Virus record (IMG/VR): IMGVR_UViG_3300037628_000105
Location: 1-49,035 of that record
Source of the DNA: a virus
Length of the DNA stretch: 49,035 nt
Reading direction: 5' to 3' (one strand)
The position numbers and the translations under genes were made by a program. Numbering within the stretch: position 1 is the first letter of the stretch; each line of letters opens with the position of its first letter. Below the pieces are notes generated by a model. The model worked only from the letters and a program-made list of their open reading frames with translations, was not told the origin of the DNA and did not search any database. Shown here in pieces: positions 41,332 to 48,588 of the stretch.

Positions 41332-41991
41332 TTAAGCGTTACTTACGATAAGAGAAGACCTATCGAGACATAGGTCCTCAACGTAATCCATGTATCTTAT
41401 TGCCAATTCTTCTTGGTTCTGGAATTCAGGATGCGGTTGAAAGCAGAGACAGTTTTGCGCCGGATAGTAGAGGACTTCGATATCTATAGGCGCTCTATCG
41501 AAGACCACTAAAACCCCGTAGTCTGTCTTCATCCGTTCCTTCTTAGTGGAACAACTAGCTGTAACAATGATGTCAGCATCTTTACTGGGAAGCATCATTT
41601 GATGGTGAGTGCTCGTTACCTTGAAAGTCTTGCTGGTACGAACATCCTTTGCTTCATGAATGCCACCGGCATGACCATCGACATGCTGATATAATGAACC
41701 CCCACACATGACATTGAGGAATTGTCCTCCTCGGCAAATCCCTGCCATCGGGATATTAAGGGATAACCCTTGTTGGAAGATTAGTATCTCCCGATTATCA
41801 CGGAGAGGGTTGGTTGACGTGGAAACATGTTTCGCTTCACCGTACAAGTTAGGTGAAACATCATGTCCACCGGTGAATTGGATCAAGTCGGCGACATGAA
41901 TATCACGTTTCAGAACCTTCCACCCGGCACTGCGAAACATCCGTACATAGGCTGGATCGCCGTTCACGATAAATACTTTCTTTTGGCTCAT
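41332..41991 (-). CDS. Class I glutamine amidotransferase / peptidase C26-like
   Basis: 219 aa from ATG 41991 with GGAG six bases upstream. IQFTGGHDVSPNLYG, MAGICRGGQFLNVMCGG (nucleophile Cys), and CFQPHPEFQNQEEL (catalytic His and Glu) define the triad fold. Closest by motif to gamma-glutamyl hydrolases of the C26 group. It may cleave gamma-glutamyl bonds, trimming or removing residues added by the ligases. Confidence 0.82.
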   Translation of the reverse strand: MSQKKVFIVNGDPAYVRMFRSAGWKVLKRDIHVADLIQFTGGHDVSPNLYGEAKHVSTSTNPLRDNREILIFQQGLSLNIPMAGICRGGQFLNVMCGGSLYQHVDGHAGGIHEAKDVRTSKTFKVTSTHHQMMLPSKDADIIVTASCSTKKERMKTDYGVLVVFDRAPIDIEVLYYPAQNCLCFQPHPEFQNQEELAIRYMDYVEDLCLDRSSLIVSNA

Positions 41992-43030
41992 AGATAACTC
42001 CGTTTCCTTTGATGAATTCATCGTGGAACTCTTCCACAGTTCGAGTAGAGAAGTCGAAACCTTTTCTCGTTTGCTTACGCCTGAGACTGTCGACAGTCTC
42101 CATCAAATCCTTGCCCGGCATTATTAGGCCCTGTTTCTGTGGCTTTGGTTGCCAGGCCATCATCAATCCTGTATATTTCATAGATTTTACGGCTTTTTCT
42201 AGAGATTTGATAATAATTTTACCTTCAACCTGATAACCAGCATATTCTTCCATCTCAACTGAAGTTTGAGGATTATGATCTAAATAATTCTGTAATCCCA
42301 TGGGACCAAGTGTATTATTAAAAATGGTATGGCCGGCATTCACACCATAAGTATTATTTCTATACCAAGTTCCGCTCATTTGTCCCCACGAGGCCGCTAT
42401 GAAAGCAATAGCTGGATCGACGCCAAGTTTTACTAACGATGTCCAAGATTTCAGGATCTCTTCATGTTCATAGAGATATCGAAACTGCATAGCTGCCCCG
42501 ACAATATAAGAAGCAGTCATTTTTGTGCAATCTTGAATTGTACATTGAGTTTTCACATAATGAGCATGATCATTTACAAACGCCGTGGCATATGGGCTTC
42601 CGGTCATGCACCATTCTTGATACTCTAAGTATTTAAGTGCCCTGGGATTATAACCGGCTCGATCTACAAAGTATTTATGATTACCGGGGGACTCATAATT
42701 TAGGGACCCATAACAAGGTTGCATCCAATAATACTTTGTTTTATATTGGATTTTCCCATGAATAATGGCAAAATTATTTAAACCGCCAGCATCTCTTTTA
42801 TGTAAACGGGCTGCTGCCTTTTCCGCCGCAGCAAGGGCATTAAGAATAGGTATTTGCTGCTTTCCCTTATAGCGTTGAACCTCTTTCTCATCGACACCAC
42901 AATGGATACAGAGACGTTCCTTGGGAGGGACACGTTTGAAGACATAAATAACCCCCGGGTCTCTCTGATATGGAGGTTTATCATAGCGATGCCGATGTCC
43001 ATCACCGATTTTAGCTAGAAATTCAGCCAT
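41903..43030 (-). CDS. Unknown protein within the amidoligase cluster, AT-rich
   Basis: 375 aa, GGAG before ATG. An early CIHCGVDEKE motif, then NNFAIIHGKIQYKTKYYWMQ, DRAGYNPRALKYLEYQEWCM, and AFIAASWGQMSGTWYRNNTY. No family recognised. The segment about 42180-42800 is visibly richer in A+T at third positions than its neighbours, suggesting recent acquisition. The last 25 residues overlap the C26-like gene. Conserved order within the cluster suggests it belongs to the same pathway. Confidence 0.7.
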   Translation of the reverse strand: MAEFLAKIGDGHRHRYDKPPYQRDPGVIYVFKRVPPKERLCIHCGVDEKEVQRYKGKQQIPILNALAAAEKAAARLHKRDAGGLNNFAIIHGKIQYKTKYYWMQPCYGSLNYESPGNHKYFVDRAGYNPRALKYLEYQEWCMTGSPYATAFVNDHAHYVKTQCTIQDCTKMTASYIVGAAMQFRYLYEHEEILKSWTSLVKLGVDPAIAFIAASWGQMSGTWYRNNTYGVNAGHTIFNNTLGPMGLQNYLDHNPQTSVEMEEYAGYQVEGKIIIKSLEKAVKSMKYTGLMMAWQPKPQKQGLIMPGKDLMETVDSLRRKQTRKGFDFSTRTVEEFHDEFIKGNGVIYEPKESIYRERRSSLCTDVSQCRVEGSET

Positions 43031-44518: not shown

Positions 44519-44764
44519 TCAAATGTCTTGGTCCAGTCCGGAGTTATCGAAGCTGATTGTGTCATAGCCGTTATCGCGTTCTTCTCGACGCTGGCTTTCC
44601 CAGACCGCAACAAGGGCCATTTCTTCAGCGGCAAAGCTGACATAGCGGAATACTCGCCCGTTAAGGTGACATTTTGAAAGGACGCGACTTCCATCACTAT
44701 ACCTTTCCCATCGGAATATGTAGTGGTCACGGGTTTTCTCCCTCGTTTCTACGAGTTTAGCCAT
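44519..44764 (-). CDS. Small hypothetical protein
   Basis: 81 aa from ATG 44764 (GGAGG upstream); a longer start at 44791 lies in the membrane gene. AKLVETREKTRDHYIFRWER, RVFRYVSFAAEEMALVAVWE. Overlaps the previous stop. Unknown. Confidence 0.6.
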   Translation of the reverse strand: MAKLVETREKTRDHYIFRWERYSDGSRVLSKCHLNGRVFRYVSFAAEEMALVAVWESQRREERDNGYDTISFDNSGLDQDI

Positions 44765-44921
44765 TAAACCATTCCTCCCACACATGAACACACGCCCAAA
44801 CGAAGGCCACCAGCCCTGCTAGAATAAAGAAGCTGATCAAAATCATCCCCTTGGTAATCCATATAAGGGCGACCACGGCCACGATGATATAGAGTAAGGC
44901 TATCAAAACACTGTATTGCAT
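44757..44921 (-). CDS. Small two-TM membrane protein
   Basis: 54 aa from ATG 44921, eight bases after GGAGG; ATG 44927 in frame would be only two bases from that site. YSVLIALLYIIVAVVALIWI and MILISFFILAGLVAFVWACV are two membrane segments joined by TKG. First gene of the operon that follows the structured non-coding region. Possible holin or antiholin-like protein; unproven. Confidence 0.65.
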   Translation of the reverse strand: MQYSVLIALLYIIVAVVALIWITKGMILISFFILAGLVAFVWACVHVWEEWFNG

Positions 44922-44944
44922 CTTCATATCCTCCATGAAAGGGT

Positions 44945-45087
44945 ACCAAGACCAGTGATGCGGCTCACTGGAAGCCTAAGCCTATCTTGGTTTTAGCCGG
45001 GCTAAGACGTATAAATACGCCAATTACACGCCCTCAGTCAGGCATAACGATACGATCATGTATCGGGTGGCCTATCTGTCCTTCAAA
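44945..45087. other. Short hairpins between the structured RNA and the membrane gene
   Basis: Nested stems ACCAAGA/TCTTGGT (44945-44951 with 44985-44991) enclose CCAGTG/CACTGG (44952-44957 with 44966-44971). TTAGC/GCTAA (44993-45005) and CGATAC/GTATCG (45048-45065) follow. On the minus strand the first element lies about 25 bases before the membrane gene start, so it could be a leader structure. No convincing gene. Confidence 0.5.
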
Positions 45088-45088
45088 T

Positions 45089-45196
45089 AAAAAACATGAC
45101 ACCAGCAAGCGCCGGCACTCGGGCGCCTCTCTATACAGCGTGCCAAGCGAGCCGATCAAGCTCGCTATCGGTCTGCATTAAGACTTGCTGGTGTCA
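45089..45196 (-). terminator. Terminator-like end of the structured RNA
   Basis: On the minus strand a perfect 13-bp stem (45196-45184 with 45109-45097, including GACACCAGCAAG) is followed after A-T by G-T6 (45094-45089). The enclosed 74 bases hold two smaller hairpins, so the stem is unusual for a simple terminator. It may close a domain and end transcription as well. Confidence 0.45.
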
Positions 45197-45450
45197 ATCT
45201 CGAATTGGTGCAAGCCACGGTAATGGGCACTGCCGCCCAATTCTGCCCGCTCTAGTCATGACTAAGCGCTCACAACTAGCTGGTAGGTCCGTAGTTGCCT
45301 ACCCTTCGGATACCGGTGACGGCTCCCCTTCACGCTATGAACGCTTCATAGGGGACTTCGGTTGCTACTACGCCCATCTATGTGGAACGTGCCTTCGGCT
45401 ATCCGGATAGCACCGTCAAAACGGAGAGGCAGGTTCGCAACCCTGCTCAG

Positions 45451-45564
45451 CTATTCTCTCCGCCATAAACCGATGAGGACCGTGTTGGCCTTGATCGCGG
45501 CCCTAAGACGGTATGTCTCATCGGCATTCAATTCCGGAAGCGGCTCCCATTGTGCGATTGCCAT
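45451..45564 (-). CDS. Micro-ORF inside the structured region
   Basis: 37 aa: MAIAQWEPLPELNADETYRL, then RAAIKANTVLIGLWRRE. The composition is protein-like, but the ribosome site is weak (AGAAG) and the frame coincides with one of the nested hairpins. Other frames here are equally open over short lengths, so chance is possible. Confidence 0.3.
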   Translation of the reverse strand: MAIAQWEPLPELNADETYRLRAAIKANTVLIGLWRRE

Positions 45565-45879
45565 CGCGGGACTTCTGACACTAACCTATAGGGGCTAGCA
45601 CACATCTCGGCCTCTGTTCTGTCTATAGAGGCACCGCTTATTAGCCACTATGCACTACACCGACTGCCATTCTGCCGAATGGCTCTAGCCTGGGTGTAGG
45701 AGAGGTGGCTGCGCTCTATTAAGGGCGAGCCACGCTCCGTTCCAGTACAACCCGGAAACTGTCAAACTGCTCGCATCTAACCCGGTGAAAGGTCAGCCCT
45801 TAATAAAAGTGCTGAGATAGAGGTCCACATGGTTGTTTTAGCTGCGGCTTCTCGATATCTCAGCTAGTCCTTGGTTGCG

Positions 45880-46044
45880 CTAAAAGATTTTTCCTTCCAT
45901 AACCAAGATCGCTAGGATTGCCGGTGCCTGCCATAAAGCTATGATCTTTCCTTCATGTGGACCCAGTAATACGTCGTTCTTGGTATACCGCCATATCATT
46001 ATAGCCGTAATTAGGGGAACATATCCCGCTAAAATAAAAACCAT
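45880..46044 (-). CDS. Small membrane protein
   Basis: 54 aa from ATG 46044 with AGGAGG six bases upstream. FILAGYVPLITAIMIWRY (residues 3-20) and IIALWQAPAILAILVMEG (34-51) are two hydrophobic segments. Ten bases in codons 28-31 are complementary to 45822-45831 downstream. The gene end overlaps a hairpin (CTTGGTT/AACCAAG, 45870-45876 with 45901-45907). Confidence 0.65.
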   Translation of the reverse strand: MVFILAGYVPLITAIMIWRYTKNDVLLGPHEGKIIALWQAPAILAILVMEGKIF

Positions 46045-46056
46045 ATCACCCTCCTA

Positions 46057-46188
46057 GGCTGTGATGTACAGGGGCGTCGTACCATCTAGCAAAAAGATGT
46101 GAATGATAGCTGGGGAACTTGCTCTCTCCAAGCACCTAAAGGTGGCAAGTCTCGGCTCCTGACTTAACAGGGGAGTTTTTACACAGCC
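46057..46188. other. Cloverleaf-like folded element
   Basis: GGCTGTG (46057-46063) pairs with CACAGCC (46182-46188). Inside are CATCT/AGATG (46083-46087 with 46095-46099), ACTTGC/GCAAGT (46117-46122 with 46145-46150) enclosing CACCT/AGGTG (46133-46144), and a GC-rich hairpin before five Ts at 46176-46180. The closing arm equals the 5' acceptor strand of the nearby tRNA-Ile. No gene. Could be an RNA element or tRNA-derived. Confidence 0.4.
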
Positions 46189-46255: not shown

Positions 46256-46483
46256 TTATTCCGGGTTCTCGCAATAAAGTTGCTCGGCCAGCTCCATACA
46301 GAACTCAGCGAGTTCTTCTAGACTTACCTTGTTCCAGCTGCATCTTTGGGTGTTGAGTTGAACCTCGTGACTATTTAAGCGCACGATACTCATGCGCGCA
46401 AAATTCGTAGAAGTAAACTCGGCGCTACTGAATTTCTCAATAGTCGGGTTCTCCACCTCAACCTTACTGTGTGGAAGCTTCAT
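46256..46483 (-). CDS. MKLPHS-family small protein (copy 1)
   Basis: 75 aa, GGGAG upstream. MKLPHSKVEVENPTIEKFSS, then ARMSIVRLNSHEVQLN and SLEELAEFCMELAEQL. Tandem paralogue of 46524-46763: both open MKLPHS and close SLEE(L/F)xEF...LAxQL. A 14-base block (TTTGTCCAAACTCA) present in the coding end of copy 2 lies just after the stop here, so this copy is shortened. Unknown function. Confidence 0.65.
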   Translation of the reverse strand: MKLPHSKVEVENPTIEKFSSAEFTSTNFARMSIVRLNSHEVQLNTQRCSWNKVSLEELAEFCMELAEQLYCENPE

Positions 46484-46523: not shown

Positions 46524-46763
46524 CTATTTTGAGTTTGGACAAACGAATTTTTCTTCCTTACGAAGTTGTTGTGCTAAAGCACTTAGAAATTCACTGAACT
46601 CCTCCAAAGACTGAGCATCCCAAGCCCAAAGCCCCGTCCATTGGATTACCACGGAAAAGTTTGTCCACAGAACAATCTTAGCTCGCGGCTTATTAGTAGC
46701 GACGAAATGGATCGTTTCAGTCTCTCGATCCGTCGTTCTATCAAGACTATGTGGCAGCTTCAT
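46524..46763 (-). CDS. MKLPHS-family small protein (copy 2)
   Basis: 79 aa, AGGAG upstream. MKLPHSLDRTTDRETETIHF, RAKIVLWTNFSVVIQWTGLW and SLEEFSEFLSALAQQLRKEE. Paralogue of the previous gene with about the same length and a slightly longer C-terminus (VCPNSK). Likely early host-takeover type proteins; function unknown. Confidence 0.65.
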   Translation of the reverse strand: MKLPHSLDRTTDRETETIHFVATNKPRAKIVLWTNFSVVIQWTGLWAWDAQSLEEFSEFLSALAQQLRKEEKFVCPNSK

Positions 46764-46797: not shown

Positions 46798-46819
46798 CTT
46801 GACAAACATGGGCCATCGG
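46798..46819 (+). repeat. Left copy of 22-bp inverted repeat
   Basis: CTTGACAAACATGGGCCATC with a final GG on the plus strand. It matches, with one mismatch, the minus-strand sequence at 47602-47623. The two copies face each other across the tRNA and the 209-aa gene. It contains a perfect TTGACA but no good -10 follows. Confidence 0.7.
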
Positions 46820-46853
46820 ACGGTTAAGAGCGGGTAGAGCGATGATGGGAGAG

Positions 46854-46924
46854 TGGCTATGCCAGGATTTGCACCTGGATCGCGGATTTATCAGTTCCGT
46901 GCTCTAACCTTGAGCTACACAGCC
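46854..46924 (-). tRNA. trnI: tRNA-Ile(GAU)
   Basis: 71 nt. Acceptor GGCTGTG/CATAGCC with A73, TA at 8-9, D arm GCTC...GAGC, anticodon arm CGGAA-CTGATAA-ATCCG (one A-A mismatch at the loop edge; anticodon GAT with U33 and A37), short 4-base variable loop, T arm CCAGG-TGCAAAT-CCTGG. The T loop has G where U55 is normal and CCA is not encoded. Probably functional but somewhat divergent. Reads leftward with its neighbours. Confidence 0.8.
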
Positions 46925-46947: not shown

Positions 46948-47577
46948 CTAAGCGGTGGCCTCGGAGATCACATTGTCACCGGCGCTGTTCACGCTCGGCC
47001 GCTCGTCTTCGACCTGATCGGACCCGCCATCTTCGGGCAAGTCGCCGATCTGCTCACCCACGGTGGGCTCGATGCCCTGCTCGGGAAGGTTACCAGTGGT
47101 CTTGGGAGCCTTGGTTGCAACATAGTTCTTGAGACTGACCACCGCCGCAGAGGCGAGGTCGTCCTTGGCCTTGAACCTCTTGGGGTTCTCGAACTTCTTG
47201 ACGATGGCCTTGAGCGCATCCATCACGTCGTCGGGACCGAACGAAAGCACCTCCTTATCGGGAGCGAAGTCCCAAAAGTGCTCTTTCTCGGCACCTTCGA
47301 GGTCCAACTCGGCGGCGTTCTCGGACGTATCCTTGAGAAACTTGCCCTTCTCCATTGTGACCGGAGCGTGAGCGACCAGCCATTTCTGGAAAGCGACCTG
47401 CCGGATGTAGTTCTTCGGCATGGCATCCATGAACTGCTGGCAATAGACGAGATTGCCATGATCGGCGAAGTGGCGAATGGCCATCATCGCACAAATCTGG
47501 GCATACTTCATGCTGTTCGCCGTTGCCTCGGAAAAGAGCTTGAGGGCTTGGGCGAAAGTTAGGTCTTTCTGAGCCAT
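46948..47577 (-). CDS. Conserved phage protein, 209 aa
   Basis: 209 aa, AAGGAAT before ATG. The first 85 residues hold KYAQICAMMAIRHFADHGNL, FMDAMPKNYIRQVAFQKWLV and AHAPVTMEKGKFLKD, a pattern I have seen in abundant phage proteins of unknown function. C-terminal 60 residues are acidic and disordered. Codons look more GC-rich at third positions than neighbouring small genes. Has its own promoter. Confidence 0.7.
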   Translation of the reverse strand: MAQKDLTFAQALKLFSEATANSMKYAQICAMMAIRHFADHGNLVYCQQFMDAMPKNYIRQVAFQKWLVAHAPVTMEKGKFLKDTSENAAELDLEGAEKEHFWDFAPDKEVLSFGPDDVMDALKAIVKKFENPKRFKAKDDLASAAVVSLKNYVATKAPKTTGNLPEQGIEPTVGEQIGDLPEDGGSDQVEDERPSVNSAGDNVISEATA

Positions 47578-47593
47578 AGGAATTCCTTTCTAG

Positions 47594-47622
47594 GGAATAG
47601 CCCGATGGCCCACGTTTGTCAA
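47594..47622 (-). promoter_or_regulatory. Promoter for the 209-aa gene
   Basis: Minus strand TTGACA (47622-47617), 17-base spacer, TATTCC (47599-47594), 17 bases before the start codon. The -35 is perfect sigma-70, the -10 moderate. The -35 and spacer form the right inverted-repeat copy. Confidence 0.6.
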
Positions 47623-47623
47623 G
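47602..47623 (-). repeat. Right copy of 22-bp inverted repeat
   Basis: Minus-strand partner of 46798-46819 (one mismatch). Here the repeat doubles as promoter -35 and spacer. Confidence 0.7.
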
Positions 47624-47639
47624 AGATTAAACGATATAG

Positions 47640-48002
47640 GTTGGACATTGTGAAACTTGATAGAGGTTGGTCCCCGCTAAGAAGCCACACCTAGCAACCT
47701 TCACGGTTGCCTGGCATAGTCCAGACCTAGCATTTTCAAGGGATTAGTCCCATATTCCACGTTGCCATTGACCCACACAGTCAGGCTAGTTGTCATCTAG
47801 CGTTACCGCTGGCTAGTCTGATTTGCTGAAGCTTGCGCCCTATCGCATAGCCGTTAGGCATTACGAATTGCTCTTAAAGCGAGCACGGGAGGCGTTCTAG
47901 TACACGCGCAACCTATATCTATTCACCATAACGATGCCTAAGTCGTTAACTAGCTTGGTTAGCCAGGACGATCTACCCCGCCTTAGAGGTAGATCGCTCT
48001 AG
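47640..48002. other. Second hairpin-rich region with micro-ORFs
   Basis: Exact stems: GCAACC/GGTTGC (47694-47710), CTGG/CCAG (47711-47724), GGGA/TCCC (47740-47751), AGCG/CGCT inside CTAG/CTAG and CAG/CTG (47782-47820), TTAGGCAT/ATGCCTAA (47854-47861 with 47934-47941), GTTAACTAG/CTAGTTAAC (47945-47953 with 47999-48007) enclosing CGATCTACC/GGTAGATCG. Minus-strand micro-ORFs at 47793-47861 (22 aa) and 47701-47796 (31 aa, MTTSLTVWVNGNVEYGTNPL) are coupled by ATGA. It may hold RNA, tiny genes, or both. Confidence 0.45.
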
Positions 48003-48080
48003 TTAACCTTTCTTAGCCCTATCGGCCAAAGCTTCCTCATAAGTGCGAACGGGTCGCAACAGATACGGACTGATAGTCAT
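48003..48080 (-). CDS. Micro-gene, 25 aa
   Basis: MTISPYLLRPVRTYEEALAD then RAKKG. Start overlaps the preceding stop as ATGA, which supports translational coupling. Function unknown; too short for a family assignment. Confidence 0.45.
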   Translation of the reverse strand: MTISPYLLRPVRTYEEALADRAKKG

Positions 48081-48295
48081 GACGTTCTAATCCCTTGTCT
48101 ATTGATCCTAAGGGCTGTCTTGCCGTTGTACTCCCAATGATTAGGCTGTTTACCATGCGGGGCCATCTTGGCCGTAGCATAGCCTCCGAACCTAAGCCCA
48201 GGGTAGTTAACCACGGGCGAGCCTTCTCGCTCTACCCTGGCCACCTGTGCGCGGACTATCGCCCGTTCACGGCGGCCAAGCCTATGCCTACTCAT
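48077..48295 (-). CDS. Small basic hypothetical protein
   Basis: 72 aa, GGGAG eight bases before ATG. An Arg-rich helix (SRHRLGRRERAIVRAQVARV) then NYPGLRFGGYATAKMAPHG and GKTALRINRQGI. Possibly nucleic-acid binding. Overlaps both neighbours. Confidence 0.6.
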   Translation of the reverse strand: MSRHRLGRRERAIVRAQVARVEREGSPVVNYPGLRFGGYATAKMAPHGKQPNHWEYNGKTALRINRQGIRTS

Positions 48296-48444
48296 GGGGT
48301 GAGGCTCCCGCCGGTTGCTGCTGTCAGCTTGTCTAGTAGGTCAAGTAACTGTTCTAAAGCAATGTCACTAAACCCCTTAGCGTCGTACTGCTTAACAGCC
48401 GCTTCAAGTAGAGCCAAGTCCCATGAAGTCAACATTCTGACCAT
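48292..48444 (-). CDS. Small helical protein, first gene from the right
   Basis: 50 aa from ATG 48444, AGGAG five bases upstream. MLTSWDLALLEAAVKQYDAK, SDIALEQLLDLLDKLTAATG. First gene after the rightmost promoter, so probably early expressed. Unknown. Confidence 0.6.
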   Translation of the reverse strand: MVRMLTSWDLALLEAAVKQYDAKGFSDIALEQLLDLLDKLTAATGGSLTP

Positions 48445-48588
48445 GAGTACTCCTATTTGCAAGAGGGTTAACGTACACCCTCGATTGCCCCGGATCGCCG
48501 GGAATGTCCCCGTGGGAGGCCGACCCTGGCGCTAGGGCCGTGAAAGACCCTGGAAGTGGTGCGCCGGGGCCGTCCCTCGGTTGACTGG

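Follow-up and report, generated by a model that had tools for sequence, protein, structure and literature searches.

The right arm of an uncultured phage genome carries a stretch of about 777 nt (positions 45088-45864, minus strand; stretch A) from whose minus strand, with a probability that we put at roughly 0.6, a large structured noncoding RNA is produced during early (right-arm) transcription. All positions refer to the window, that is, the whole 49,035-base IMG/VR record. This reading is based on the folding of the stretch, its strand asymmetry, a local rise in GC content, the lack of a coding signal and a terminator-like 3' end. A structured RNA at this place is also plausible because further structured noncoding stretches occur in the early region of this phage group, one of them with clear covariation. 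As a new phage RNA, with no known family or relative, stretch A is promising but unproven.

The source is an uncultured tailed phage, a Zobellviridae-like podovirus. Its left arm encodes, on the plus strand, the terminase, the portal (head-tail adaptor) and the major head protein, and its right arm, on the minus strand, the DNA polymerase, the primase-helicase, an amidoligase cluster and many small early genes. By helicase and glutamine amidotransferase, its nearest annotated relatives include several that are recorded as Zobellviridae (GP100, Paundecimvirus and CVT22). Protein identities to known relatives are about 45-65%, and thus there is no close relative to hand. Two neighboring proteins (41903-43030 and 46948-47577), each used alone as a query, retrieved no relatives. 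All small genes around stretch A are on the minus strand, in the same direction as its folding strand, and the GC content of the stretch is about 0.55-0.56 versus 0.44-0.48 in both flanks. An earlier note, made on the letters of this DNA, had described the region as a stretch without a solid gene, between small genes and with a tRNA-Ile 1 kb away. The tRNA is indeed where it was said to be (Table 1), and no credible gene was found in stretch A, although the gene-free region proved wider than described, reaching from 44937 to 45879.

On the minus strand, stretch A folds with an energy of -310.8 kcal/mol. The z-score ranged from -4.7 to -6.7 over five sets of shuffled sequences, and no shuffle was as good wherever this was counted (in the largest set, of 100 dinucleotide shuffles, z was -5.4 with 0/100 as good). 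For the plus strand, z was just -2.7 to -3.6. Control windows of 777 nt from the same phage gave a mean z of -0.8 on the minus strand (25 windows, most extreme -3.8) and of -1.1 on the plus strand (13 windows, most extreme -3.5); stretch A folds better than all 38 of these stretches of its own genome. The sense-minus-antisense energy was -30.4 kcal/mol, compared with -14.6 +/- 7.9 from composition (2/100 shuffles). The strand difference thus goes beyond composition, which points to RNA rather than to DNA hairpins. The predicted structure has 253 pairs, of which 31 are G-U, and about twenty helices with at least 4 bp and a mean pair probability above 0.75. Its ensemble diversity was not clearly below that of shuffles. 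In short, stretch A shows both the better-than-shuffled folding and the strand bias by which a structured noncoding RNA can be recognized.

The earlier note also listed at least thirteen inverted repeats of 5-13 bp. The stems that it named do exist, among them stems of 13 bp (45097-45109/45184-45196), 10 bp (45717-45726/45796-45805), 9 bp (45811-45819/45856-45864) and 8 bp (45470-45477/45517-45524). We counted perfect inverted repeats within 120 nt and compared the counts with 200 dinucleotide-preserving shuffles. Repeats of at least 6 bp were in excess (30 observed versus 15.6 shuffled, with 0/200 shuffles reaching 30), as were those of at least 7 bp (10 versus 3.6; 1/200 shuffles reached 10) and of at least 9 bp (3 versus 0.2; 0/200 shuffles reached 3). 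On the other hand, 5-bp stems were at chance level (70 versus 62.6 +/- 7.6 in 200 shuffles), and therefore the short stems in that list carry no weight while the longer ones count. Stem counting by itself is a weak test, as 5/56 coding windows reach the count of stretch A at the 8-bp cut-off (4 repeats).

Table 1. Coordinates of stretch A, its predicted parts, its neighbors and the leader RNAs of related phages (window positions unless a locus is named).
Feature	Position	Strand	Basis or remark
Stretch A, candidate large structured noncoding RNA, about 777 nt	45088-45864	minus	fold z, no coding signal
5' closed hairpin, 9+3 bp outer helix, acceptor-stem-like GCUGAGAUA/UAUCUCAGC	45811-45864	minus	z -3.8, P about 0.98
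Well-defined stem-loop, CUACACC/GGUGUAG, inner GCCAUUC/GAAUGGC	45649-45705	minus	P 0.95-1.0; z -3.2
Two adjacent well-defined stem-loops, GCCGAUGAG/CUCAUCGGU and GCGGAGAG/CUCUCCGU	45421-45525	minus	P about 0.97-0.99; z -4.5
GAAGUCCCC-hairpin-GYGAAGGGG element	45326-45359	minus	folded alone, no better than shuffles
3' closed 100-nt domain, 13-bp outer helix and two inner hairpins	45097-45196	minus	z -5.4
U6 tract two bases past the 13-bp stem	45089-45094	minus	sequence; terminator-like scan match
Upstream flanking gene, 54-aa predicted membrane peptide, AGGAGG ahead of ATG	45880-46044	minus	
Downstream flanking gene, 59-aa predicted membrane peptide	44757-44936	minus	
tRNA-Ile (GAT)	46853-46924	minus	Rfam/tRNA call; about 1 kb upstream of stretch A in the sense of transcription
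209-aa early protein, phrog_1448 family	46948-47577	minus	early-region marker common to other Zobellviridae-like phages
Stretch B, 425 nt, leader of the phrog_1448 gene	47578-48002	minus	z -3.2 to -3.5
Leader RNA members	L031:1040-1520 (OQ555403), L033:985-1569 (LT986460), L037, L038		
Leader RNA members, viral contigs	L171:5838-6230, L179:1171-1591, L196:3912-4320		

The best-supported helices of stretch A are those of the 5' hairpin, of the two segments 45421-45525 and 45649-45705, and of the 100-nt 3' domain, which is the best local folding signal in the right arm. The T6 that the earlier note had placed on the minus strand after the 13-bp stem was found there, preceded by TG. This tract is probably the 3' end of stretch A, resembling an intrinsic terminator, with the reservation that terminator-like scan matches are in general no commoner here than in shuffles. 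No convincing sigma-70 promoter was found directly upstream of the stretch. The tRNA model did not match the 5' hairpin, and the sole tRNA called in the window is the tRNA-Ile. A second GAAGUCCC is present at 45575 (minus strand), likewise followed by GGGAGCCG, and the GAAGUCCCC/GAAGUCCC elements might represent an internal duplication, though the statistics for this are weak.

When windows of 160 nt were folded, only the 3' domain and 45601-45760 stood out, and the rest of the interior was mostly unremarkable. The folding signal is therefore a global one plus that of the 3' domain. This brings us to the main rival of a single RNA, namely a patchwork of cis elements between early genes, in which the hairpins at the two ends (45811-45864 and 45089-45196) would act as terminators or RNase-processing sites and the GC-rich middle would be unconstrained. 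Such an arrangement would explain why the strongest local signals lie at the ends, and why the overall z drops to about -3.1 once the 3' domain is removed; moreover, structured leaders are common between the early genes of this phage group. On the other hand, the interior contains well-defined helices at 45421-45525 (z -4.5) and 45649-45705 (z -3.2), and 777 nt of unconstrained DNA would be quite long for so compact a genome. We regard the patchwork as rather doubtful, yet as an explanation to be taken seriously.

As for coding potential, the plus-strand ORFs overlapping stretch A have negative codon-bias scores. The sole ORF in the stretch with a mildly positive score is a minus-strand one of 37 aa (45451-45564), for which neither a protein family nor a phage homologue was found and which overlaps two strong helices; it may still encode a small peptide. 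None of the ORFs tested in the stretch had a family or homologue beyond chance-level matches. Judged by codon bias, protein family and conserved peptide, stretch A does not look like a protein-coding region.

When stretch A was compared by blastn with phage and plasmid sequences and with about 85 related viral contigs, nothing convincing emerged except one weak match in the contig L240, and a back-translated search via the plus-strand ORF overlapping the stretch returned nothing. In L240 (1263-1293), 28/31 bases match the 5' element of stretch A (its 3' side and flank), with an E value of 0.002 within about 120 loci and of 1.4e-5 within its own contig. The matched segment belongs to the 3' end and downstream flank of a tRNA-Leu (L240:1193-1293), 1.9 kb before the amidotransferase gene, and the similarity would fit a possible tRNA-island origin of the 5' hairpin. 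The lead is weak, since the downstream motif derived from it (CUUUUAUUAASGGCUGA) was rejected as a homology signal, its matches elsewhere looking like chance.

One might thus ask whether stretch A consists of decayed genes or of a decayed tRNA island, with residual inverted repeats and no function of its own. The resemblance of the 5' element to the tRNA-Leu end and flank, the presence of tRNAs near amidotransferase genes in relatives and the lack of homologues of stretch A would all agree with this. However, decay would not raise the GC content, the stem density or the strand-specific folding, and, bar chance-level matches, the tested ORFs yielded no family or homologue pointing to former genes. 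We consider decay unlikely.

Still less probable is a function of the DNA itself, such as that of a replication origin or of a hairpin-rich recombination or packaging site. Many inverted repeats in a noncoding stretch are what such a site would show. Against it, one strand folds better than the other by more than composition accounts for, G-U pairs make up 31 of the 253 in the predicted structure, and the position is within an operon-like series of minus-strand genes and not at a genome end.

To our knowledge, no more than a handful of giant RNAs have been described from phages. The earlier note suggested a large noncoding RNA of the GOLLD or ROOL kind and proposed a check with the GOLLD, ROOL and HEARO models, the last for a large ornate bacterial RNA. 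GOLLD (RF02032) is phage-borne, about 800 nt long, ornately folded and often found near tRNAs, and ROOL (RF03087) is phage-borne, about 570-660 nt long and found near tRNA islands (PMC12286853). Both form RNA-only cages of unknown purpose, GOLLD being reported to self-assemble as a 14-mer cage (PMC12286853). Stretch A resembles GOLLD and ROOL in size and shares with both RNAs the phage setting near a tRNA gene, in this case one tRNA about 1 kb off and no island; this setting alone is no proof of membership. In contrast to GOLLD, it is an orphan sequence with no tRNA inside. The GOLLD model, run directly on both strands of the record with E up to 10, gave no match, including its conserved 3' region. 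The ROOL model gave none in the record with E up to 10 either, a result that is weak by itself as control genomes were unmatched too, and the HEARO model (RF02033) did not match the record. Rfam 15 over the window reported the tRNA-Ile alone, and Rfam with E up to 10 on 44900-46100 reported nothing relevant to stretch A. Of the earlier suggestion, the large minus-strand structured RNA is thus supported, whereas membership in a known family is not. That stretch A is a divergent GOLLD or ROOL member missed by the Rfam models, as its size, phage setting and nearby tRNA could suggest, is highly improbable given that neither the direct searches with E up to 10 nor the Rfam scans matched either model.

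Structured noncoding stretches look common in the Zobellviridae-like group. A rough survey covered the surroundings of the amidotransferase gene in 80 loci and scored 82 gene-poor stretches of at least 380 nt, with 8 shuffles each. Many stretches of 460-1100 nt had z < -4, mostly on the transcribed strand; Rfam gave no match on twenty of these. Not every one of them is an RNA, because part is a genome-terminus element. A 60-nt core (AATTT..AGAAATTT..AAGGTGCAATGCACC..CCCC), common to gene-poor stretches of the early region in L171, L177, L180, L187, L190, L204, L211, L213, L217, L224 and others, was considered as an RNA domain and rejected, as it is probably a genome-terminus or promoter element instead. 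In the window itself, stretch B is of the same type as stretch A but separate from it, and the two gave no significant alignment. Leaders syntenic with stretch B are present in L312, L313, L175, L169 and L316 and have short common blocks, e.g., AATGCCTA.

The firmest structured RNA of this phage group is a leader RNA of Paundecimvirus and GP100, which is undescribed. It is present in cultured Pseudomonas phages (Paundecimvirus Ty, O4, IME180, PA11, PPAT and others), as well as in GP100, L171, L179 and L196, and, measured between a TTGACA-TAATAT-type promoter and the gene that follows, is about 470-590 nt long. Its 3' domain/terminal helix covaries, with two-sided changes in 13/22 pairs and 34 two-sided-change cells versus 9.4 in shuffles (0/500). 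Rfam did not detect the leader in the members scanned. As cultured phages carry it, a laboratory test is directly possible.

Stretch A and this leader are both large structured early-region RNAs, actual or putative, of Zobellviridae(-like) phages, but the leader lies before the phrog_1448 gene and stretch A after it, stretch B being the positional equivalent of the leader in the window. Covariance models of the 5' and 3' domains of the leader (R1 and R2, representing GGCAAACGGG and the covarying 3' hairpin, respectively) found all members with 73-132 bits; the best score in the right arm of the window was 11.3 bits, outside stretch A, and membership of stretch A in the leader family was rejected. 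Both RNAs also contain GAAGUCCC...GYGAAGGG. This was rejected as evidence of homology, because the matches of the motif in IMG/VR are nearly all coding and the noncoding-looking ones are unlike RNA genes. By our estimate, the 9-mers common to stretch A and the Paundecimvirus RNA are at chance level.

Returning to the single large RNA, we propose that the 5' hairpin and the 3' closed domain with its U6 tract would bound a unit of about 780 nt with some twenty helices. This unit may be transcribed together with the early genes, either ending at the 3' domain or being trimmed to it. The RNA would then fold into a compact multi-branched body and persist as a stable stand-alone molecule, and, by analogy with GOLLD and ROOL, it might work through its structure, as a scaffold or an RNA-only assembly, and not through translation. 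Going one step further, we tentatively suggest that stretch A could be the founding member of a new class of giant RNAs in phages, separate from GOLLD and ROOL; large structured early RNAs would then have evolved repeatedly among the Zobellviridae and their relatives. This goes beyond what we would call likely. If true, an unrelated large early phage RNA would help to decide if phages in general make use of large RNA assemblies.

Several minor observations were made in the same regions. Upstream of stretch A, the small genes at 46256-46483 and 46524-46763 (minus strand; MKLPHS...) are paralogous, which indicates a local duplication, and their 5' regions are similar (TTTGTCC/TTTGTCA ... ATGGCRAATAGG). 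Inverted copies of TTGACAAACRTGGGCCATCGG at 46799-46819 (plus strand) and 47602-47622 (minus strand) flank the tRNA-Ile and the 209-aa gene; they are possibly regulatory sites or the ends of a mobile piece. Just before stretch B, three small genes of 56, 72 and 25 aa with ATGA overlaps occupy 48003-48462 (minus strand), and the 72-aa gene resembles the one at the same place in L175. In L312, the best-covered relative, a gene-poor, GC-rich and structured stretch of 505 nt (1192-1696; z -2.8) directly follows the phrog_1448 gene, and it has no sequence similarity to stretch A. The right arm of another related contig (IMGVR_UViG_3300029142_000005; L029:4895-5100) contains repeated CTATATCGCTTGT-type motifs. 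Finally, in Pseudomonas phage GP100, Rfam reports a type II hammerhead ribozyme just upstream of the leader (L033:573-644; 39.8 bits, cut-off 37); this match coincides in part with a promoter-like TTGACA site and is possibly a false positive.
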